A stretch of DNA of 64,000 nt from Cereibacter johrii (GTDB taxonomy: Bacteria > Pseudomonadota > Alphaproteobacteria > Rhodobacterales > Rhodobacteraceae). The notes below the pieces were generated by a model that was not told the origin of the DNA, made no database searches, and worked only from the letters and a program-made list of their open reading frames with translations. The DNA lies in the NCBI RefSeq assembly GCF_001720585.1, contig NZ_MABH01000248.1:1-64000 (forward strand). The letters run 5' to 3'. The position numbers were made by a program, and so were the translations under genes. This document shows, piece after piece, positions 3,533 to 63,710 of this stretch. Within the stretch, counting starts at the first letter, position 1, and each line of letters starts with the position of its first letter.

Positions 3533-4708
3533 ATGGCAAAGGCAAAGTTTGAACGTAACAAACCGCACGTCAACATCGGCACGATCGGCCACGTTGACCA
3601 CGGCAAGACGACTCTGACGGCCGCGATCACGAAGTATTTCGGCGAGTTCCGCGCGTACGACCAGATCGACGGCGCGCCGGAAGAGCGGGCCCGCGGGATC
3701 ACGATCTCGACCGCGCACGTGGAATACGAGTCGGAAACGCGTCACTATGCGCACGTCGACTGCCCCGGCCACGCCGACTATGTGAAGAACATGATCACGG
3801 GCGCCGCGCAGATGGACGGCGCGATCCTCGTGGTGAACGCGGCCGATGGCCCGATGCCGCAGACGCGCGAGCACATCCTGCTCGGCCGTCAGGTGGGCAT
3901 CCCCTACATGGTCGTCTACATGAACAAGGTCGACCAGGTGGACGATCCGGAACTCATCGAGCTGGTCGAGATGGAGATCCGTGAGCTTCTGTCCTCCTAC
4001 GACTACCCCGGCGACGACATCCCGATCATCAAGGGCTCGGCTCTGGCGGCGATGAACGGCACCGACAAGGAAATCGGCGAGGATTCGATCCGCGCGCTGA
4101 TCGCCGCCGTCGACGAGTACATCCCGACCCCGGCGCGTGCCGTGGACCAGCCGTTCCTGATGCCGGTCGAGGACGTGTTCTCGATCTCGGGCCGCGGCAC
4201 CGTGGCCACGGGCCGGATCGAGCGCGGCGTGGTGAAGGTGGGCGAGGAACTCGAGATCGTCGGCATCCGCCCGTCGAAGAAGACGGTCTGCACCGGCGTC
4301 GAGATGTTCCGCAAGCTGCTCGACCAGGGCGAAGCGGGCGACAACGTGGGCCTGCTGCTCCGCGGCGTGGACCGCGACGGCATCGAGCGCGGGCAGGTTC
4401 TCTGCAAGCCGGGCTCGGTGAAGCCGCACACGAAGTTCGAGGCCGAGGCCTACATCCTCACGAAAGAGGAAGGCGGCCGCCACACCCCGTTCTTCGCCAA
4501 CTACCGTCCGCAGTTCTACTTCCGGACCACCGACGTGACCGGGACCGTCCAGCTGCCGGAAGGCACCGAGATGGTGATGCCGGGCGACAACCTGAAGTTC
4601 AACGTCGAGCTGATCGCGCCGATCGCCATGGAAGAGAAGCTCCGCTTCGCCATCCGTGAAGGCGGCCGCACCGTCGGCGCCGGCGTCGTCTCGAAAATCA
4701 TCGCCTGA
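3533..4708 (+). CDS. tuf: Elongation factor Tu, copy 1
   Basis: EF-Tu is the GTPase that carries aminoacyl-tRNA to the ribosome. The product has 391 residues. It shows the P-loop GHVDHGKT (19-26), DCPGHADY, and the guanine motif NKVD, followed by the two beta-barrel domains. The protein is identical to copy 2 at 22210. The DNA is also the same from ATG 3533 to base 4705, where this copy ends GCC-TGA and the other GCG-TAA. An in-frame ATG lies upstream, but [12 protein letters not shown] is the true N terminus. The Shine-Dalgarno here is poor (GAGGCG) compared with AGGAGG in copy 2. This copy is monocistronic and is followed by a strong terminator. Confidence 0.98.
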
Positions 4709-7201: not shown

Positions 7202-7900
7202 ATGGCCAAGGTTGGAAAACGGACGCGCTCGGCGCGTGAAGCCTTCGTCGGCAAGGACCTGATCTCGGTCGAGGATGCGGTGGCGCTGATCAAGCAGGCC
7301 GCCTCGGCGAAATTCGACGAGACCCTCGAAGTGGCGATGAACCTGGGCGTCGACCCGCGTCACGCCGACCAGATGGTGCGTGGCGTCGTCACCCTGCCGA
7401 ACGGCACGGGCAAGACGGTGCGCGTGGCGGTCTTCGCCCGCGGCGCCAAGGCGGACGAGGCGAAAGCGGCCGGTGCCGACATCGTCGGTGCCGAAGACCT
7501 GATGGAGACGATCCAGTCGGGCAAGATCGAGTTCGACCGCTGCATCGCGACCCCGGACATGATGCCGCTCGTCGGCCGTCTGGGCAAGATCCTCGGGCCG
7601 CGGAACCTGATGCCGAACCCGAAGGTCGGCACCGTGACGATGGATGTGAAATCCGCCGTCGAGGCCGCCAAGGGCGGTGAGGTGCAGTTCAAGGTCGAGA
7701 AGGCGGGCGTGATCCACGCCGGCGTCGGCAAGATGTCGTTCGAGGCGGACAAGCTCGCGCAGAACGTCCGCGCCTTCGTCGATGCCGTGAACCGCGCGAA
7801 GCCTGCCGGGGCGAAAGGCACCTACCTCAAGAAGGTGTCGCTCTCCTCGACCATGGGTCCGGGCGTCTCGGTCGACCTGACCTCCGCCACCAGCCACTGA
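7202..7900 (+). CDS. rplA: 50S ribosomal protein L1
   Basis: L1 forms the mobile stalk by the E site and in many bacteria represses its own L11-L1 message. It has 232 residues, the usual length. Family segments include [20 protein letters not shown] near the N terminus, [21 protein letters not shown] in the middle (the L1 signature) and [17 protein letters not shown] at the end. It is followed by a structured leader of about 240 bases before rplJ. Confidence 0.97.
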
Positions 7901-22209: not shown

Positions 22210-23385
22210 ATGGCAAAGGCAAAGTTTGAACGTAACAAACCGCACGTCAACATCGGCACGATCGGCCACGTTGACCACGGCAAGACGACTCTGACGGCCG
22301 CGATCACGAAGTATTTCGGCGAGTTCCGCGCGTACGACCAGATCGACGGCGCGCCGGAAGAGCGGGCCCGCGGGATCACGATCTCGACCGCGCACGTGGA
22401 ATACGAGTCGGAAACGCGTCACTATGCGCACGTCGACTGCCCCGGCCACGCCGACTATGTGAAGAACATGATCACGGGCGCCGCGCAGATGGACGGCGCG
22501 ATCCTCGTGGTGAACGCGGCCGATGGCCCGATGCCGCAGACGCGCGAGCACATCCTGCTCGGCCGTCAGGTGGGCATCCCCTACATGGTCGTCTACATGA
22601 ACAAGGTCGACCAGGTGGACGATCCGGAACTCATCGAGCTGGTCGAGATGGAGATCCGTGAGCTTCTGTCCTCCTACGACTACCCCGGCGACGACATCCC
22701 GATCATCAAGGGCTCGGCTCTGGCGGCGATGAACGGCACCGACAAGGAAATCGGCGAGGATTCGATCCGCGCGCTGATCGCCGCCGTCGACGAGTACATC
22801 CCGACCCCGGCGCGTGCCGTGGACCAGCCGTTCCTGATGCCGGTCGAGGACGTGTTCTCGATCTCGGGCCGCGGCACCGTGGCCACGGGCCGGATCGAGC
22901 GCGGCGTGGTGAAGGTGGGCGAGGAACTCGAGATCGTCGGCATCCGCCCGTCGAAGAAGACGGTCTGCACCGGCGTCGAGATGTTCCGCAAGCTGCTCGA
23001 CCAGGGCGAAGCGGGCGACAACGTGGGCCTGCTGCTCCGCGGCGTGGACCGCGACGGCATCGAGCGCGGGCAGGTTCTCTGCAAGCCGGGCTCGGTGAAG
23101 CCGCACACGAAGTTCGAGGCCGAGGCCTACATCCTCACGAAAGAGGAAGGCGGCCGCCACACCCCGTTCTTCGCCAACTACCGTCCGCAGTTCTACTTCC
23201 GGACCACCGACGTGACCGGGACCGTCCAGCTGCCGGAAGGCACCGAGATGGTGATGCCGGGCGACAACCTGAAGTTCAACGTCGAGCTGATCGCGCCGAT
23301 CGCCATGGAAGAGAAGCTCCGCTTCGCCATCCGTGAAGGCGGCCGCACCGTCGGCGCCGGCGTCGTCTCGAAAATCATCGCGTAA
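22210..23385 (+). CDS. tuf: Elongation factor Tu, copy 2
   Basis: This second EF-Tu copy is in its classical str-operon position behind fusA. It encodes the same 391-residue protein as the gene at 3533. The nucleotide sequence matches from the ATG to the last codon (GCG here, GCC there), while flanks and stop codons differ (TAA here). The Shine-Dalgarno is strong (AGGAGG). Such near-perfect identity across about 1.17 kb points to ongoing gene conversion. It is followed by a weak terminator-like hairpin and then the S10 operon. Confidence 0.98.
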
Positions 23386-50672: not shown

Positions 50673-50842
50673 GGGGCCTCTCGCCTGGGGCAGGGCGGGC
50701 CGCTCGCGCGCAGGCGGTGCGGCCCGACCGTAAGATCACGTCTCCATCGCCGGCTGCGGCGGGCCAGACCGGGGGCGGGACGGCGCATGGCCAAGCGCCA
50801 CCGGTCCTGCCGCCGCAAGCGGCCTCCGCAGCGGTCCCGGCA

Positions 50843-50882
50843 GCGTCGCAGAACCGTCACCCTTCCGTCATGCGGGCTTCAT
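50843..50882 (+). promoter_or_regulatory. PHO-box-like direct repeats (putative PhoB site)
   Basis: Four 7-base units repeat every 11 bases: GCGTCGC (50843), CCGTCAC (50854), CCGTCAT (50865) and GCTTCAT (50876). The central pair, CCGTCAC-CCTT-CCGTCAT, is close to the PhoB consensus CTGTCAT-N4-CTGTCAT. It lies 44 bases before the start of the phytase-like gene. Confidence 0.55.
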
Positions 50883-50925
50883 CCAAAGCCGCCATCCCTC
50901 GGCCGAACGACAAGAGGGATGCTCC

Positions 50926-53097
50926 ATGTCCATGAAACTCGCCGGGATGACCTCGGCTCTTGCGCTGGCCGCGGCCGCGCCGGTGCTGGCAGAGACCAGC
51001 TTCAACCGCATCGCGACCTTCGCCACGACCGCCAACATGGCCGCGGGCGAGGACATGAGCCGCCCGACCTCGGCCGAGATCGTGTCGGTGTCCGAGGACG
51101 GAATGACGCTGATCTACACCGACAGCCCGCTGGGCGTGGTGGGGCTCATCGACCTCGCCGATCCCGAGGCGCCGAAGCCGCTCGGCACCATCGCCATGGG
51201 CGGAGAGCCCACCACCGCCGTGATCGCGGGCGCGCGCGCCTATGTCGCCGTCAACACCTCCGAGAGCTACACCGCGCCCTCGGGCAAGCTCGTGACCGTG
51301 GATCTCGAGAGCCGCAAGGAGGTGGCCTCCTGCGATCTCGGCGGCCAGCCCGACTCGGTCGCCAAGGCGCCGGACGGCTCGTTCCTCGCCATCGCCATCG
51401 AGAACGAGCGCGACGAGGAGGTGAACGACGGCGCGCTGCCGCAGATGCCCGCGGGCTTCCTCGTCAAGCTGCCGCTGACCGAGGCGGGGGCGGACTGCGC
51501 GGCGCTCGAGCGGATCGATCTGACCGGCCTCGCCGCCATCGCCCCCGAGGATCCCGAGCCGGAGTTCGTCTCGATCAACGCGGCCGGCGACATCGCCGTG
51601 ACGCTGCAGGAGAACAACGAGGTGGTGATCGCCGCCGCCGACGGCACGATCAGCCATTTCCCGGCCGGCACCGTCGATCTCGAAGGGATCGACACGAAGA
51701 AGGACGGCCGCTTCTCCTTCACCGACAGTCAGGAAGCCCGTCTGCGCGAGCCCGACGGGATCAAGTGGATCGGCACCGACCATCTCGCCACCGCCAACGA
51801 GGGCGACTGGAACGGCGGCGCGCGCGGCTGGACGATCTTCTCGCGGGACGGGCAGGTGGTCTGGGAGGCGGGCGCGAGCCTCGAGCGCGCCATCGCCGCC
51901 ATCGGCCATTATCCCGAGCACCGGTCGAAGTCGAAGGGGGTCGAGGTGGAGTCGGTCGAGGTGGCGAGCTTCGGCGGCACGCCTCTGGCCTTCGTCGCCT
52001 CCGAGCGCGCCTCGGTGGTGGCGGTCTATGATCTGACCGATCCGGCGGCGCCGCGTCTCCTCCAGATCCTGCCCTCGGGCGTCTCGCCGGAAGGCGTGGT
52101 GGCCATCCCCGAGCGCGACCTTCTCGTGACCGCGAACGAGGCCGACCTGCGCGAGGACGGCGGCGCGCCGGCCCATGTGATGATCTACCGGCGGGGCGAA
52201 GGCCCTGCGGCCTATCCGACCCTCACCTCCGAGGGCAGCGACTCGCTGATCGGCTGGGGCGCCCTGTCGGCGCTTGCCGCCGACGCCCAGACGCCGGGTC
52301 AGCTCTGGGCCGTCTCGGACAGCGTCTATTCCATGGCACCCACGATCTACCGGATCGACGCGACCGCTACGCCCGCGCGCATTGCGGAAGCGATCCCGGT
52401 CACGCGGATGGGCCAGCCCGCCCAGAAGCTCGACCTCGAGGGGATCGCCTCCGACGGCGAGGGCGGCTTCTGGCTCGCCTCCGAGGGCAACAGCGCCAAG
52501 CTCGTGCCCCACGCGATCTACCATGTCGACGGCAAGGGCCGGATCGACGAGGAGATCCCGCTGCCGGCCGAGCTTCTGGCGGGCGAGACCCGCTTCGGCC
52601 TCGAGGGGATCGCGAAGGTGGGCGATGTGCTCTGGATGGCCGTGCAGCGCGAATGGAAGGACGATCCGAAGGGGCAGGTGAAGCTTCTGGCCTACGACCT
52701 CAAGGAGGAAAGCTGGGGCGGCGTGCGCTACCCGCTCGACGCGCCGGCGGAAGGCGCCTGGATGGGGCTGTCGGAGCTGACCGTCCACGGCGACTGGGCC
52801 TGGCTCATCGAGCGCGACAACCGCGTGGCCGATGCGGATGCCGCGAAGCGTCTGACCCGTGTGGCCCTGTCGGAGCTGAAGCCCGCGCCGCTCGGCTCGG
52901 AGCTGCCGCTGGTGAAGAAGGAGGTCGTCCGCGATCTGGTGCCCGATCTTCAGCGGCTGAACGGCTATGTCCTCGACAAGGTCGAAGGCTTCGCCATCGA
53001 TGCGGCAGGCACCGGCTACATCGTCACCGACAATGACGGGACCGACGATGCCTCGGGCGAGACCCTGTTCTGGAGCGTGGATCAGCTTCCGGAATGA
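50926..53097 (+). CDS. Exported beta-propeller protein with phytase-like esterase domain
   Basis: The product has 723 residues with a signal peptide (AAAAPVLAETS, cleavage near 22). The first half reads as beta-propeller repeats (PLGVVGLIDLADPEAPKPLG, VVAVYDLTDPAAPRLLQI). The second half matches the esterase-like phytase family: LDLEGIASDGEGGFWLASEG, RFGLEGIAKVGDVLWMAVQRE and GFAIDAAGTGYIVTDNDGTDD. It is probably periplasmic or extracellular and may release phosphate from organic phosphates. The PHO-box-like repeats upstream support a phosphate-starvation role. Activity is inferred from fold only. Confidence 0.75.
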   Translation: MSMKLAGMTSALALAAAAPVLAETSFNRIATFATTANMAAGEDMSRPTSAEIVSVSEDGMTLIYTDSPLGVVGLIDLADPEAPKPLGTIAMGGEPTTAVIAGARAYVAVNTSESYTAPSGKLVTVDLESRKEVASCDLGGQPDSVAKAPDGSFLAIAIENERDEEVNDGALPQMPAGFLVKLPLTEAGADCAALERIDLTGLAAIAPEDPEPEFVSINAAGDIAVTLQENNEVVIAAADGTISHFPAGTVDLEGIDTKKDGRFSFTDSQEARLREPDGIKWIGTDHLATANEGDWNGGARGWTIFSRDGQVVWEAGASLERAIAAIGHYPEHRSKSKGVEVESVEVASFGGTPLAFVASERASVVAVYDLTDPAAPRLLQILPSGVSPEGVVAIPERDLLVTANEADLREDGGAPAHVMIYRRGEGPAAYPTLTSEGSDSLIGWGALSALAADAQTPGQLWAVSDSVYSMAPTIYRIDATATPARIAEAIPVTRMGQPAQKLDLEGIASDGEGGFWLASEGNSAKLVPHAIYHVDGKGRIDEEIPLPAELLAGETRFGLEGIAKVGDVLWMAVQREWKDDPKGQVKLLAYDLKEESWGGVRYPLDAPAEGAWMGLSELTVHGDWAWLIERDNRVADADAAKRLTRVALSELKPAPLGSELPLVKKEVVRDLVPDLQRLNGYVLDKVEGFAIDAAGTGYIVTDNDGTDDASGETLFWSVDQLPE

Positions 53098-53521
53098 ACC
53101 TGCCGGCCCCCGGTCCGCCGGGGGCCACCCTCGGGACGCGCGGGAGACGCCCGCATGTCCCGCCCCGTCCGGGGCGCGGGCGGCGTGCCCCCGGCCTCGG
53201 CCCGCGCCTCGCGGCAGCGGTGCTTCGGTCCGCGAGCGGCGGGCTGCCCCGGCACCGTCTTCCCCGGTCGAGCCGCTCCTCGTGCATCCTCAAGTTGAGT
53301 CGGGCAGGCGGGGCGCCCGACCGTCAGGAGGGGCTGTCTCCGGGGAAGAAGGCCGCGCTTCCGTCCCGAAGCGCGCCCCTTTTCCCGCGCGAGGGCCGGA
53401 ATCGGGTCGGAAGTGGACCCGACGTGCCACGTTTGCGGCCTTCCTGCGCCGGGGGACTTGACGGGATCGTGCGCGCCATGTCCGATCAATCGGATTTCCC
53501 GCCCCTCCAGATGGATTGATC
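53098..53521 (+). other. Non-coding gap with two or three hairpins
   Basis: A 9-bp stem GGCCCCCGG/CCGGGGGCC (53105-53113 with 53118-53126) follows the phytase-like gene but has no T-run. GTCGGGC/GCCCGAC is at 53299-53305 with 53315-53321. CGCGCTTC/GAAGCGCG (53354-53361 with 53368-53375) is followed by CCCCTTTT and looks like a real terminator. A promoter-like TTGACG (53458-53463) precedes the next gene. Reading frames here have no family features. Confidence 0.5.
53354..53383 (+). terminator. Probable intrinsic terminator before the L,D-transpeptidase gene
   Basis: An 8-bp stem CGCGCTTC (53354-53361) / GAAGCGCG (53368-53375) with loop CGTCCC is followed by CCCCTTTT. Its location, 257 bases after the phytase-like gene, suggests that an undetected transcript may end here. 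Confidence 0.45.
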
Positions 53522-54280
53522 GTGACCAGCCGCATTCTCTCATACGCGCTGATGGCGCTGCTGCCGTTCCTCGCCGCCTGCGCGCAGGCGCCGGCCCCCG
53601 AGACGCCGAAGGAGCATCCGCTCTATCCGGGCATCCAGGATGGCGAGTTCTTCATCGAGCCGGTGCCCATGCGGTATCTGACGCCCGACACGGTGCGGCA
53701 GGAGGTGGCCTACAACGGCCCCGAGGAGCCCGGCACCATCGTCGTCGATACGTTCGCGCGGCGGCTCTATTATGTGACGGAAGAGGGCCGGGCCATGCGC
53801 TACGCCATCGCCGTCGGCCGGGCGGGTCTCGCCTTCCGCGGCAATGCCAAGGTGCAGCGCAAGCGCGAGTGGCCCTCGTGGCAACCCACGGCCAACATGA
53901 TCCGCACCCAGCCCGAGATGTATGCGCCCTATGCGGCGGGCCTGCCCGGCGGGCTCGAGAACCCGCTCGGCGCGCGGGCGCTCTATCTCTACCGTGGCGG
54001 GCGGGACACGATGTTCCGCATTCATGGCACCGTGCAGAATGCCTCCATCGGGCACGCAACCTCGGCGGGCTGCATCCGGCTGTTCAACCAGGATGCGATC
54101 GACCTCTACGGTCGCGTGAACCTCGGCACGCCGGTCAAGGTCCGCACCGAGGCCGAGTCGCTCGCGCTCGAGGGGCAGTTCCACGACGACCGCTACGGCC
54201 GCATCGCGCCGGGCCCGGCCGAGCCGCTGACCGAGGAGGAGCGCGTGCTTCTGTCGGGCGTGCCGACCCAGACGCGCTGA
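53522..54280 (+). CDS. L,D-transpeptidase (YkuD domain), lipoprotein-like
   Basis: L,D-transpeptidases make 3-3 peptidoglycan cross-links or attach lipoproteins. The product has 252 residues from GTG 53522. The N terminus VTSRILSYALMALLPFLAAC carries a lipobox ending LAAC (Cys20 by this start), so the enzyme is probably membrane-anchored. The YkuD signature is complete: His168 (HGTVQNASIGH) and the catalytic Cys184 in TSAGCIRLFNQDAIDL. Residues WPSWQPTANMI in the middle are typical of the ErfK/YbiS group. A TTG at 53516 in the same frame is less likely. Confidence 0.9.
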   Translation: MTSRILSYALMALLPFLAACAQAPAPETPKEHPLYPGIQDGEFFIEPVPMRYLTPDTVRQEVAYNGPEEPGTIVVDTFARRLYYVTEEGRAMRYAIAVGRAGLAFRGNAKVQRKREWPSWQPTANMIRTQPEMYAPYAAGLPGGLENPLGARALYLYRGGRDTMFRIHGTVQNASIGHATSAGCIRLFNQDAIDLYGRVNLGTPVKVRTEAESLALEGQFHDDRYGRIAPGPAEPLTEEERVLLSGVPTQTR

Positions 54281-62627: not shown

Positions 62628-63710
62628 TCAGCGCGAGAGGCCCCCGGCCAGATCGGGCATGTCCAGAGCGGCAAAGCCATAGTGACGCAGCCAGCGCAGG
62701 TCGCTCTCGAAGAAGGCGCGCAGATCCGGGATGCCGTATTTCAGCATGGCGATCCGGTCGATCCCCATGCCGAAGGCAAAGCCCTGCCACTCGTCGGGGT
62801 TCACGCCGGCCGCGGCCAGCACCTTCGGATGCACCATGCCCGAGCCGAGAATCTCGAGCCAGCTGTCGCCCTCGCCGATCCTGAGCTGGCCCCCCTCCCA
62901 CGAGCAGCGGATATCGACCTCGGCCGAAGGCTCGGTGAAGGGGAAGTGCGAGGCGCGGAAGCGCAGCTCCACCGAGGGCACCTCGAAGAAGGCGCGGCAG
63001 AATTCCTCGAGCACCCATTTGAGGTTGGCCATCGAGATGTCGCGGTCGATGGCCAGACCCTCGACCTGATGGAACATGGGCGTGTGGGTCTGGTCCATGT
63101 CCATGCGATAGACACGGCCGGGCGCGATCACGCGGATCGGCGCGCCCTGCGCCTGCATGGCCCGGATCTGCACCGGCGAGGTATGGGTGCGCAGGACGTG
63201 CGGCGGGCGGTTGTCGCCCTCGGCGCGCGCCATGAAGAAGGTATCGTGCTCCTGCCGGGCCGGATGCTCGGGCGGGATGTTCAGCGCGTCGAAGTTGAAC
63301 CAGTCGCTCTCGACCTGCGGGCCTTCCGCCACGGCGAAGCCCATGTCGGCGAAGATCGCGGTCAGTTCGGCCATGACCTGGCTCACCGGATGGATGGTGC
63401 CCGCCCGCCGCGGCCGGCCGGGCAGCGTCACGTCGAGCCATTCGGTCTTCAGCCGTGCATCGAGCGCCGCATCGGCCAGCCCCTGCTTGCGGGCGCGCAG
63501 GCTCGCGTCGATCTCGTCGCGCAGCCGGTTCAGCGCGGCGCCGGTGGTCTGGCGCTCCTCGGGCGACATCTGGCCCAGTTCGCGCATCTTCAGGCTGATC
63601 TCGCCCTTCTTGCCTAGGGCGGCCAGACGCACCTCCTCGAGCGCGGCCTCGTCGGCGGCGCTGGCGATGGCCTCGATATATTTGCCTCTGAGCGTGTCGA
63701 GCGCGGTCAT
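62628..63710 (-). CDS. pheS: Phenylalanine-tRNA ligase subunit alpha
   Basis: PheS is the catalytic subunit. It has 360 residues from ATG 63710 ([17 protein letters not shown]), with GGAGG six bases upstream; the frame extends beyond but without a start signal. The class II motifs are clear: motif 2 region [10 protein letters not shown] and [20 protein letters not shown], and motif 3 [18 protein letters not shown]. Phe-binding residues such as [21 protein letters not shown] are typical. It follows rplT, a common neighbour. Confidence 0.97.

Follow-up and report, generated by a model that had tools for sequence, protein, structure and literature searches.

A probable four-half-site PHO promoter before the gene of an exported Phytase-like protein in Cereibacter johrii

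In this study, we analyzed a stretch of 64,000 nucleotides, referred to as the window, which is part of contig C248 of the 4.5-Mb draft genome of Cereibacter johrii. The locus of interest comprises a gene for a large two-domain protein with start codon ATG at position 50926, an array of four short direct repeats in front of it, the promoter and translation signals predicted between array and gene, and a gene for an L,D-transpeptidase further downstream (Table 1). At the N-terminus of the encoded protein, a signal-peptide-like stretch was recognized by eye, and the profile of the Phytase-like family matched with 209.4 bits at a gathering cut-off of 27.6 bits. The first-pass annotation, made from the letters of the window, had called the product an exported phytase-like esterase. 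Of this, the assignment to the Phytase-like family and the signal-peptide-like start stand, whereas "phytase" is here the name of a family and says nothing on activity. The AlphaFold model (pLDDT 87) is mostly beta and consists of two propeller-like halves, of which the C-terminal one reached a pLDDT of 90 when folded alone. According to structure searches, the N-terminal half resembles WD40/YncE-type propellers. Among the matches listed for the C-terminal propeller, E. coli YjiK was closest (Z 20.9; 2.7 Å over 216 residues), glutaminyl cyclases were also near, and apyrases and a paraoxonase were found lower. Searches with the whole protein and with the C-terminal domain returned general propellers, and no phytase was among the matches listed.

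Table 1. Features of the array, the predicted promoter and the adjacent genes; positions refer to the window.
Feature	Positions	Strand	Basis
Putative PHO half-site 1, GCGTCGC, followed by the A-rich spacer AGAA	50843..50849	+	Columns of both conserved in the alignment of 93 ortholog sites
Putative PHO half-site 2, CCGTCAC	50854..50860	+	Middle base C in 73 and G in 1 of 93 orthologs
Putative PHO half-site 3, CCGTCAT	50865..50871	+	Strong conservation in 93 aligned ortholog sites
Putative PHO half-site 4, GCTTCAT, weaker, promoter-proximal	50876..50882	+	Weaker in orthologs; shared with the consensus of pst promoters
Predicted minus-10-like element CCATCC with its conserved CA at 50893-50894	50892..50897	+	Fixed distance in orthologs
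Probable ribosome-binding sequence AAGAGGGA	50912..50919	+	Read from the letters, inferred
Gene of the exported two-propeller protein, 723 amino acids, Phytase-like (PF13449) at residues 443-704	50926..53097	+	Profile match and predicted structure
YkuD L,D-transpeptidase gene, located after the phytase-like gene	53516-54280		

The first-pass annotation had described four heptamers at 11-base intervals upstream of the gene, which the letters bear out: four CTGTCAT-like half-sites of 7 bp follow each other in direct orientation with spacers of 4 bp and thus at exact 11-base steps. The departure from CTGTCAT is larger for repeats 1 and 4 than for repeats 2 and 3. A repeat search over positions 50780-50925 reported no direct-repeat family at the settings used, probably because the copies differ. 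CTGTCAT is the PHO box motif of PhoB in E. coli (PMC4415409, PMC2573895), and CTGTCAT-N4-CTGTCAT served as PHO box query for S. meliloti (PMC2573895). The 7 + 4 direct repeats, the 11-base period and the coding-strand orientation of the PhoB box are all present in the window, although the first three half-sites there open with C or G followed by C-G instead of with C-T-G, and the array has four half-sites and falls short of the pst box in its own genome. PHO promoters of E. coli have an A-rich spacer and a minus-10 element about 10 bases past the last repeat, as is the case here. The central pair of repeats had initially been read as the PhoB consensus. A PHO box as such is supported; the A-rich spacer, however, sits between repeats 1 and 2, and the conserved unit is formed by all four repeats together with the minus-10-like CAT.

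For the analysis of conservation, 111 ortholog loci were collected, of which 98 with distinct upstream DNA were kept after removal of 13 near-duplicate upstream regions. De novo motif detection in these 98 upstream regions yielded tgTCAC.aAAccGTCAc....ccGTCAC.cg.ccGTcAC, that is, four in-step repeats on the coding strand, with the two-repeat consensus tGTCAC.aAAc(c/t)GTCA(c/t). In the 98 orthologs, the 3′ end of the three-repeat portion precedes the start codon by a median of 56 bases. For the 18-mer motif, the log-likelihood gain was 542 compared to 96-110 in five shuffled sets, in a run in which 11 reverse-strand loci were misoriented. Scores above 10 bits were obtained for 93 of the 98 orthologs, and 60 exceeded the highest backward control (median of these controls 0.9 bits, maximum 20.8 bits). 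The five sites scoring below 10 were left out of the column counts, which therefore refer to 93 sites. One of these five belongs to Cereibacter ovatus (score 9.0), the second-nearest relative found and the nearest named one in the ortholog list, with a protein identity of 78%; another genome of the same genus had a protein identity of 96%. The array is also shared by orthologs in records labeled Rhizobiales, Hyphomicrobiales, Rhizobiaceae, Rhizobium or Agrobacterium, with varying strength: L106 (31.6), L110 (20.7), L088 (19.0), L093 (16.3) and L090 (13.4) matched well, and L097 (8.7) and L098 (9.4) matched poorly.

In PhoB-activated promoters, the last half-site replaces the minus-35 element, and a fixed distance between array and minus-10 element is expected if this applies here. 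Among the 93 aligned ortholog sites, a C-A-(T) element was found at columns 49-51, with CA in 58 and A in 66 of them. In all 20 of 20 pst promoters, TA occurs at the matching place, mostly as CTAG. In both the pst and the phytase-like promoters, repeat 4 starts 17 bases before the minus-10 A, and the conserved CA(T) lies at a pst-like fixed distance from an array placed where a minus-35 element would be expected. Based on this shared geometry, we predict the minus-10 element given in Table 1 and a transcription start near 50901-50905. The pst promoters of 20 Rhodobacteraceae, the own genome included, likewise carry four repeats at the same distance to the minus-10 A. Their consensus has CTAG and TGTTAC-type middle repeats, whereas the phytase-like promoters have CCAT and (C/T)GTCAC repeats. 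Scans for sigma-70 promoters and terminators gave no match. A perfect 8-base inverted repeat, CATCCCTC/GAGGGATG at 50893-50900 and 50914-50921, extends across the predicted minus-10 element and the probable ribosome-binding sequence.

Likeness to the boxes of undoubted Pho genes was found for pst and phnC and to a lesser extent for phoX. Of 30 genomes searched for pstC, 20 were scanned over about 10 kb around this gene with the matrix of the phytase-like promoters. The best matches ranged from 11.5 to 32.9 bits, and 19 of 20 were above the backward-control maximum of 13.4 bits. The pst sites thereby obtained yield TGTCAtaaAACTGTtACA, which is near the published PHO box. The site of the own genome lies about 75 bases upstream of the open reading frame (ORF) preceding pstC; we regard this ORF as pstS-like because of its position and a sequence motif, and no NCBIfam model matched it at E 1e-60 or better. 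Upstream of phnC, matches of at least 14 bits, a cut chosen by the analyst, were present within 400 bases in 15 of 23 cases and within 1,500 bases in 18 of 23, while the controls reached at most 7.0 and 11.8 bits, respectively. The phoX promoters matched poorly (4 of 13 reached 14 bits), and the region upstream of phoX in the own genome gave weak matches of 1.8 bits with the phytase-promoter matrix and 7.0 bits with the pst matrix.

In the reverse direction, matrices made from the pst sites were applied to loci of about 7 kb on both strands. The upstream region of the phytase-like gene held the top match of its locus in 77 of 98 cases with the 18-mer and in 85 of 98 with the 55-mer matrix, and with the 18-mer the forward strand scored above the reverse strand in 94 of 98 and 64 of 98 exceeded the 95% level of backward controls; these pst-to-phytase scores are partly circular, since the pst sites had been picked with the phytase-promoter matrix, in the version with 11 misoriented loci (the pst rescan used the corrected matrix). 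A low score compared with pst sites, which the first-pass annotation had taken to speak against a PHO box, was found in part. On both strands of the 64 kb, the window site ranked first with the pst 18-mer (12.1 bits, next 8.2) as well as with the 55-mer (6.8 bits, next -3.0), but it remained below the own pst site, which reached 22.5 and 55.1 bits, respectively. With the 29-mer phytase-promoter matrix, from which its own site had been left out, the window site scored higher than the own pst site (24.6 versus 21.6 bits).

The genome has one gene for PhoB above the TIGR02154 cut-off (21636-22304 of contig C76), on the contig that also carries pst. In line with the earlier remark that the window holds no pst or phoB genes, the pstC and PhoB family searches gave matches above cut-off on contig C76 only. 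Genes neighboring the orthologs were called with a simple ORF finder and identified by blastp: the gene that follows encodes an L,D-transpeptidase in 25 of 95 loci, the one that precedes encodes an M24 peptidase in 16 of 97, and the neighbors are otherwise variable. A family tally of divergent neighbors included 31 of 34. The gene divergent from the phytase-like gene is phnC in three relatives (306.9 to 318.1 bits, cut-off 266.1) and phoX in one. Two of the three gaps next to phnC contain strong oppositely directed arrays (23.7/24.0 and 20.9/22.0 bits), and the third contains weak arrays both ways (14.3/11.8 bits). Between the phytase-like gene and the divergent phoX, no array pointing toward phoX was detected (0.4 bits). 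At locus L048, one of the two with strong arrays next to phnC, the phnC-directed array overlaps the called ORF start, and the match to phnC starts at residue 36 of this ORF. One of the phnC gaps, at 7375-7600 of locus L243 in genome G094, has a strong PHO-like array in each direction with about 24 bits each.

Conservation among orthologs, mutual detection between this promoter and those of pst and phnC, a common promoter geometry and the divergent Pho genes all point the same way, and the array is very probably a PHO box, that is, a PhoB-controlled promoter with four half-sites before the phytase-like gene; the same four lines support the control by phosphate starvation proposed in the first-pass annotation. 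We infer the binding of PhoB, the start site, the activation by starvation and the role of the enzyme from these comparisons. When phosphate is scarce, PhoR would phosphorylate PhoB, and dimers of PhoB~P would bind the array on one helix face, where two dimers could fill the four half-sites. The half-site nearest to the gene would then substitute for the minus-35 element before a sigma-70-type minus-10 element, and RNA polymerase would be recruited. Transcription would start about 20-25 bases upstream of the ATG, and the exported phytase-like protein would be produced within the Pho regulon.

The array could also consist of chance GTCA words without function in GC-rich DNA. Isolated half-sites are indeed common, and C. 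ovatus retains only about two good repeats. The pattern CCGTCAY-N4-CCGTCAY with up to 2 mismatches matched 10 times in the window compared to an average of 2.77 over 100 shuffled sequences, one of which reached 10; three of the 10 matches are overlapping registers of the array, which is also the sole exact match in the window. Across the genome of 4.5 Mb, CNGTCAY-N4-CNGTCAY was found, when at most 1 mismatch was allowed, 96 times compared to 15 times for the backward pattern, and the exact matches numbered three, the window array included. The three-repeat pattern YGTYRY-N5-YGTYRY-N5-YGTYRY, which was composed after inspection of the site and hence serves as description and not as blind test, had the window array as its only match in the genome and none for its backward control. 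Since the array is conserved among the 98 ortholog upstream regions, we reject chance, the probability of which we consider negligible: orthologs of two orders keep position, strand, spacing and number of the repeats, and median scores of the backward controls were 0.9 and 1.9 bits. On contig C165 of the own genome, two PHO-like pairs that resemble each other, AGGTCATCCGCCCGTCAT and AGGTCATGCAGCCGTCAT, were noticed at 63544 and 63895, at a spacing of 351 bases.

More serious competitors are other OmpR-family regulators with 11-base spacing, chiefly CenR, which might bind the array alone or together with PhoB and make the gene one of envelope stress. CenR is an essential envelope regulator of R. 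sphaeroides, whose TGA-N8-TGA sites are known from ChIP-seq and mostly precede genes for envelope and exported proteins (PMC9275681). Its motif thus likewise consists of 11-base direct repeats before exported-protein genes, it comes from the closest model organism, and one listed site, TCACTTCGCCGTCAT, resembles TCACCCTTCCGTCAT of the window (PMC9275681). The window site scores 10.2 bits with a CenR matrix, and for repeats 2 and 3 alone this matrix exceeds the pst matrix (8.7 versus 4.6 bits). The L,D-transpeptidase gene that follows in 25 of the 95 loci also fits an envelope function. Against CenR stands the second half-site, for which, in contrast to the array, a G is typical: 24 of 31 published sites have G in its middle and 3 of 31 have C, whereas G occurs in 1 of 93 orthologs at repeat 2 and in 4 of 93 at repeat 3, and the window lacks it at that place. 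Given the published sites with C, the array might still be a CenR site of this rarer kind. The odds favored PHO over CenR in 70 of 93 orthologs at repeats 1-2, yet in just 53 of 93 at repeats 2-3. Within the 64 kb, the window site ranks 11th with the CenR matrix and first with the PHO matrix. Furthermore, two half-sites are described for the CenR motif, and CenR leaves the third and fourth repeats as well as the likeness to pst and phn promoters unexplained. We therefore regard an explanation by CenR or a related regulator as improbable; CenR is unlikely to be the main regulator and is a possible second one. For ChvI, the motifs TTGC-N3-GCAA in Caulobacter and N-GCC-N8-GCC in S. meliloti have been published (PMC9731502), which in a comparison by eye with these stated motifs are unlike the window array.

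With PhoB as the most plausible regulator, the function of the protein has to be considered separately. It probably frees phosphate from organic phosphates outside the cytoplasm. PhoB might, however, control a protein that is no phosphate scavenger and instead follows phosphate stress, e.g. as a binding or envelope protein, and we give this option a considerable chance, clearly below even. The sequence search for solved relatives gave none that convinced (one match, E 0.3), the C-terminal half is similar to a wide range of propellers, with YjiK as the best match, and to glutaminyl cyclases, and PF13449 is here the name of a family. Weak points in favor of an enzyme are the apyrase (1s18, 2h2u) and paraoxonase (4q1u) propellers among the matches listed, and invariant Asp, Glu and Asn residues. 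Apyrase and paraoxonase propellers are calcium-dependent hydrolases.

In S. meliloti, the gene SMc00620, annotated as "phytase type", is the most connected gene of a phosphate-stress network that holds phoB (PMC8829014); by this description and by its co-expression with phoB genes, it is a candidate counterpart. The PhoB regulon of Caulobacter includes "a phytase" (PMC11208175), likewise a candidate counterpart of the protein studied here. The Pho-regulon table available for Phaeobacter MED193 names no phytase-like protein (PMC10132767), and this strain may not carry the gene. The available portions of PMC3687685 and PMC12501420 do not mention the Phytase-like family. A literature search combining this family with phosphate starvation, or with PhoB and Rhodobacter, found no paper; an earlier prediction of the promoter is conceivable, and the literature searched contained no expression or binding data for the phytase-like gene.

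The promoter is most likely a new example of a well-known type of switch, and the value of the finding lies in placing a little-known exported protein family in the Pho regulon. Thereby, a family known by its domain name gains a testable place in phosphate metabolism: the conservation of PhoB-type promoters across two alphaproteobacterial orders predicts induction by starvation and a phosphorus-containing substrate. As a wider and tentative proposal, to which we assign a chance not far short of even, the long, two-propeller Phytase-like proteins may be widespread unrecognized phosphate-scavenging enzymes of Rhodobacterales and Rhizobiales, which are connected to PhoB via a dedicated promoter of four half-sites and belong to the regular content of the Pho regulon in all bacteria that have them. 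The matrix with four half-sites and fixed minus-10 spacing can be used for PHO promoters of GC-rich Rhodobacteraceae, where it aids in finding Pho genes and helps to separate PHO boxes from look-alike CenR sites.

Elsewhere in the window, positions 3533-3832 and 22210-22509 are 100% identical over at least 300 bases at a spacing of 18,677 bases. Identical 29-mers at 4456 and 23133 have the same spacing of 18,677 bases, which suggests that the duplication is longer than 300 bases.
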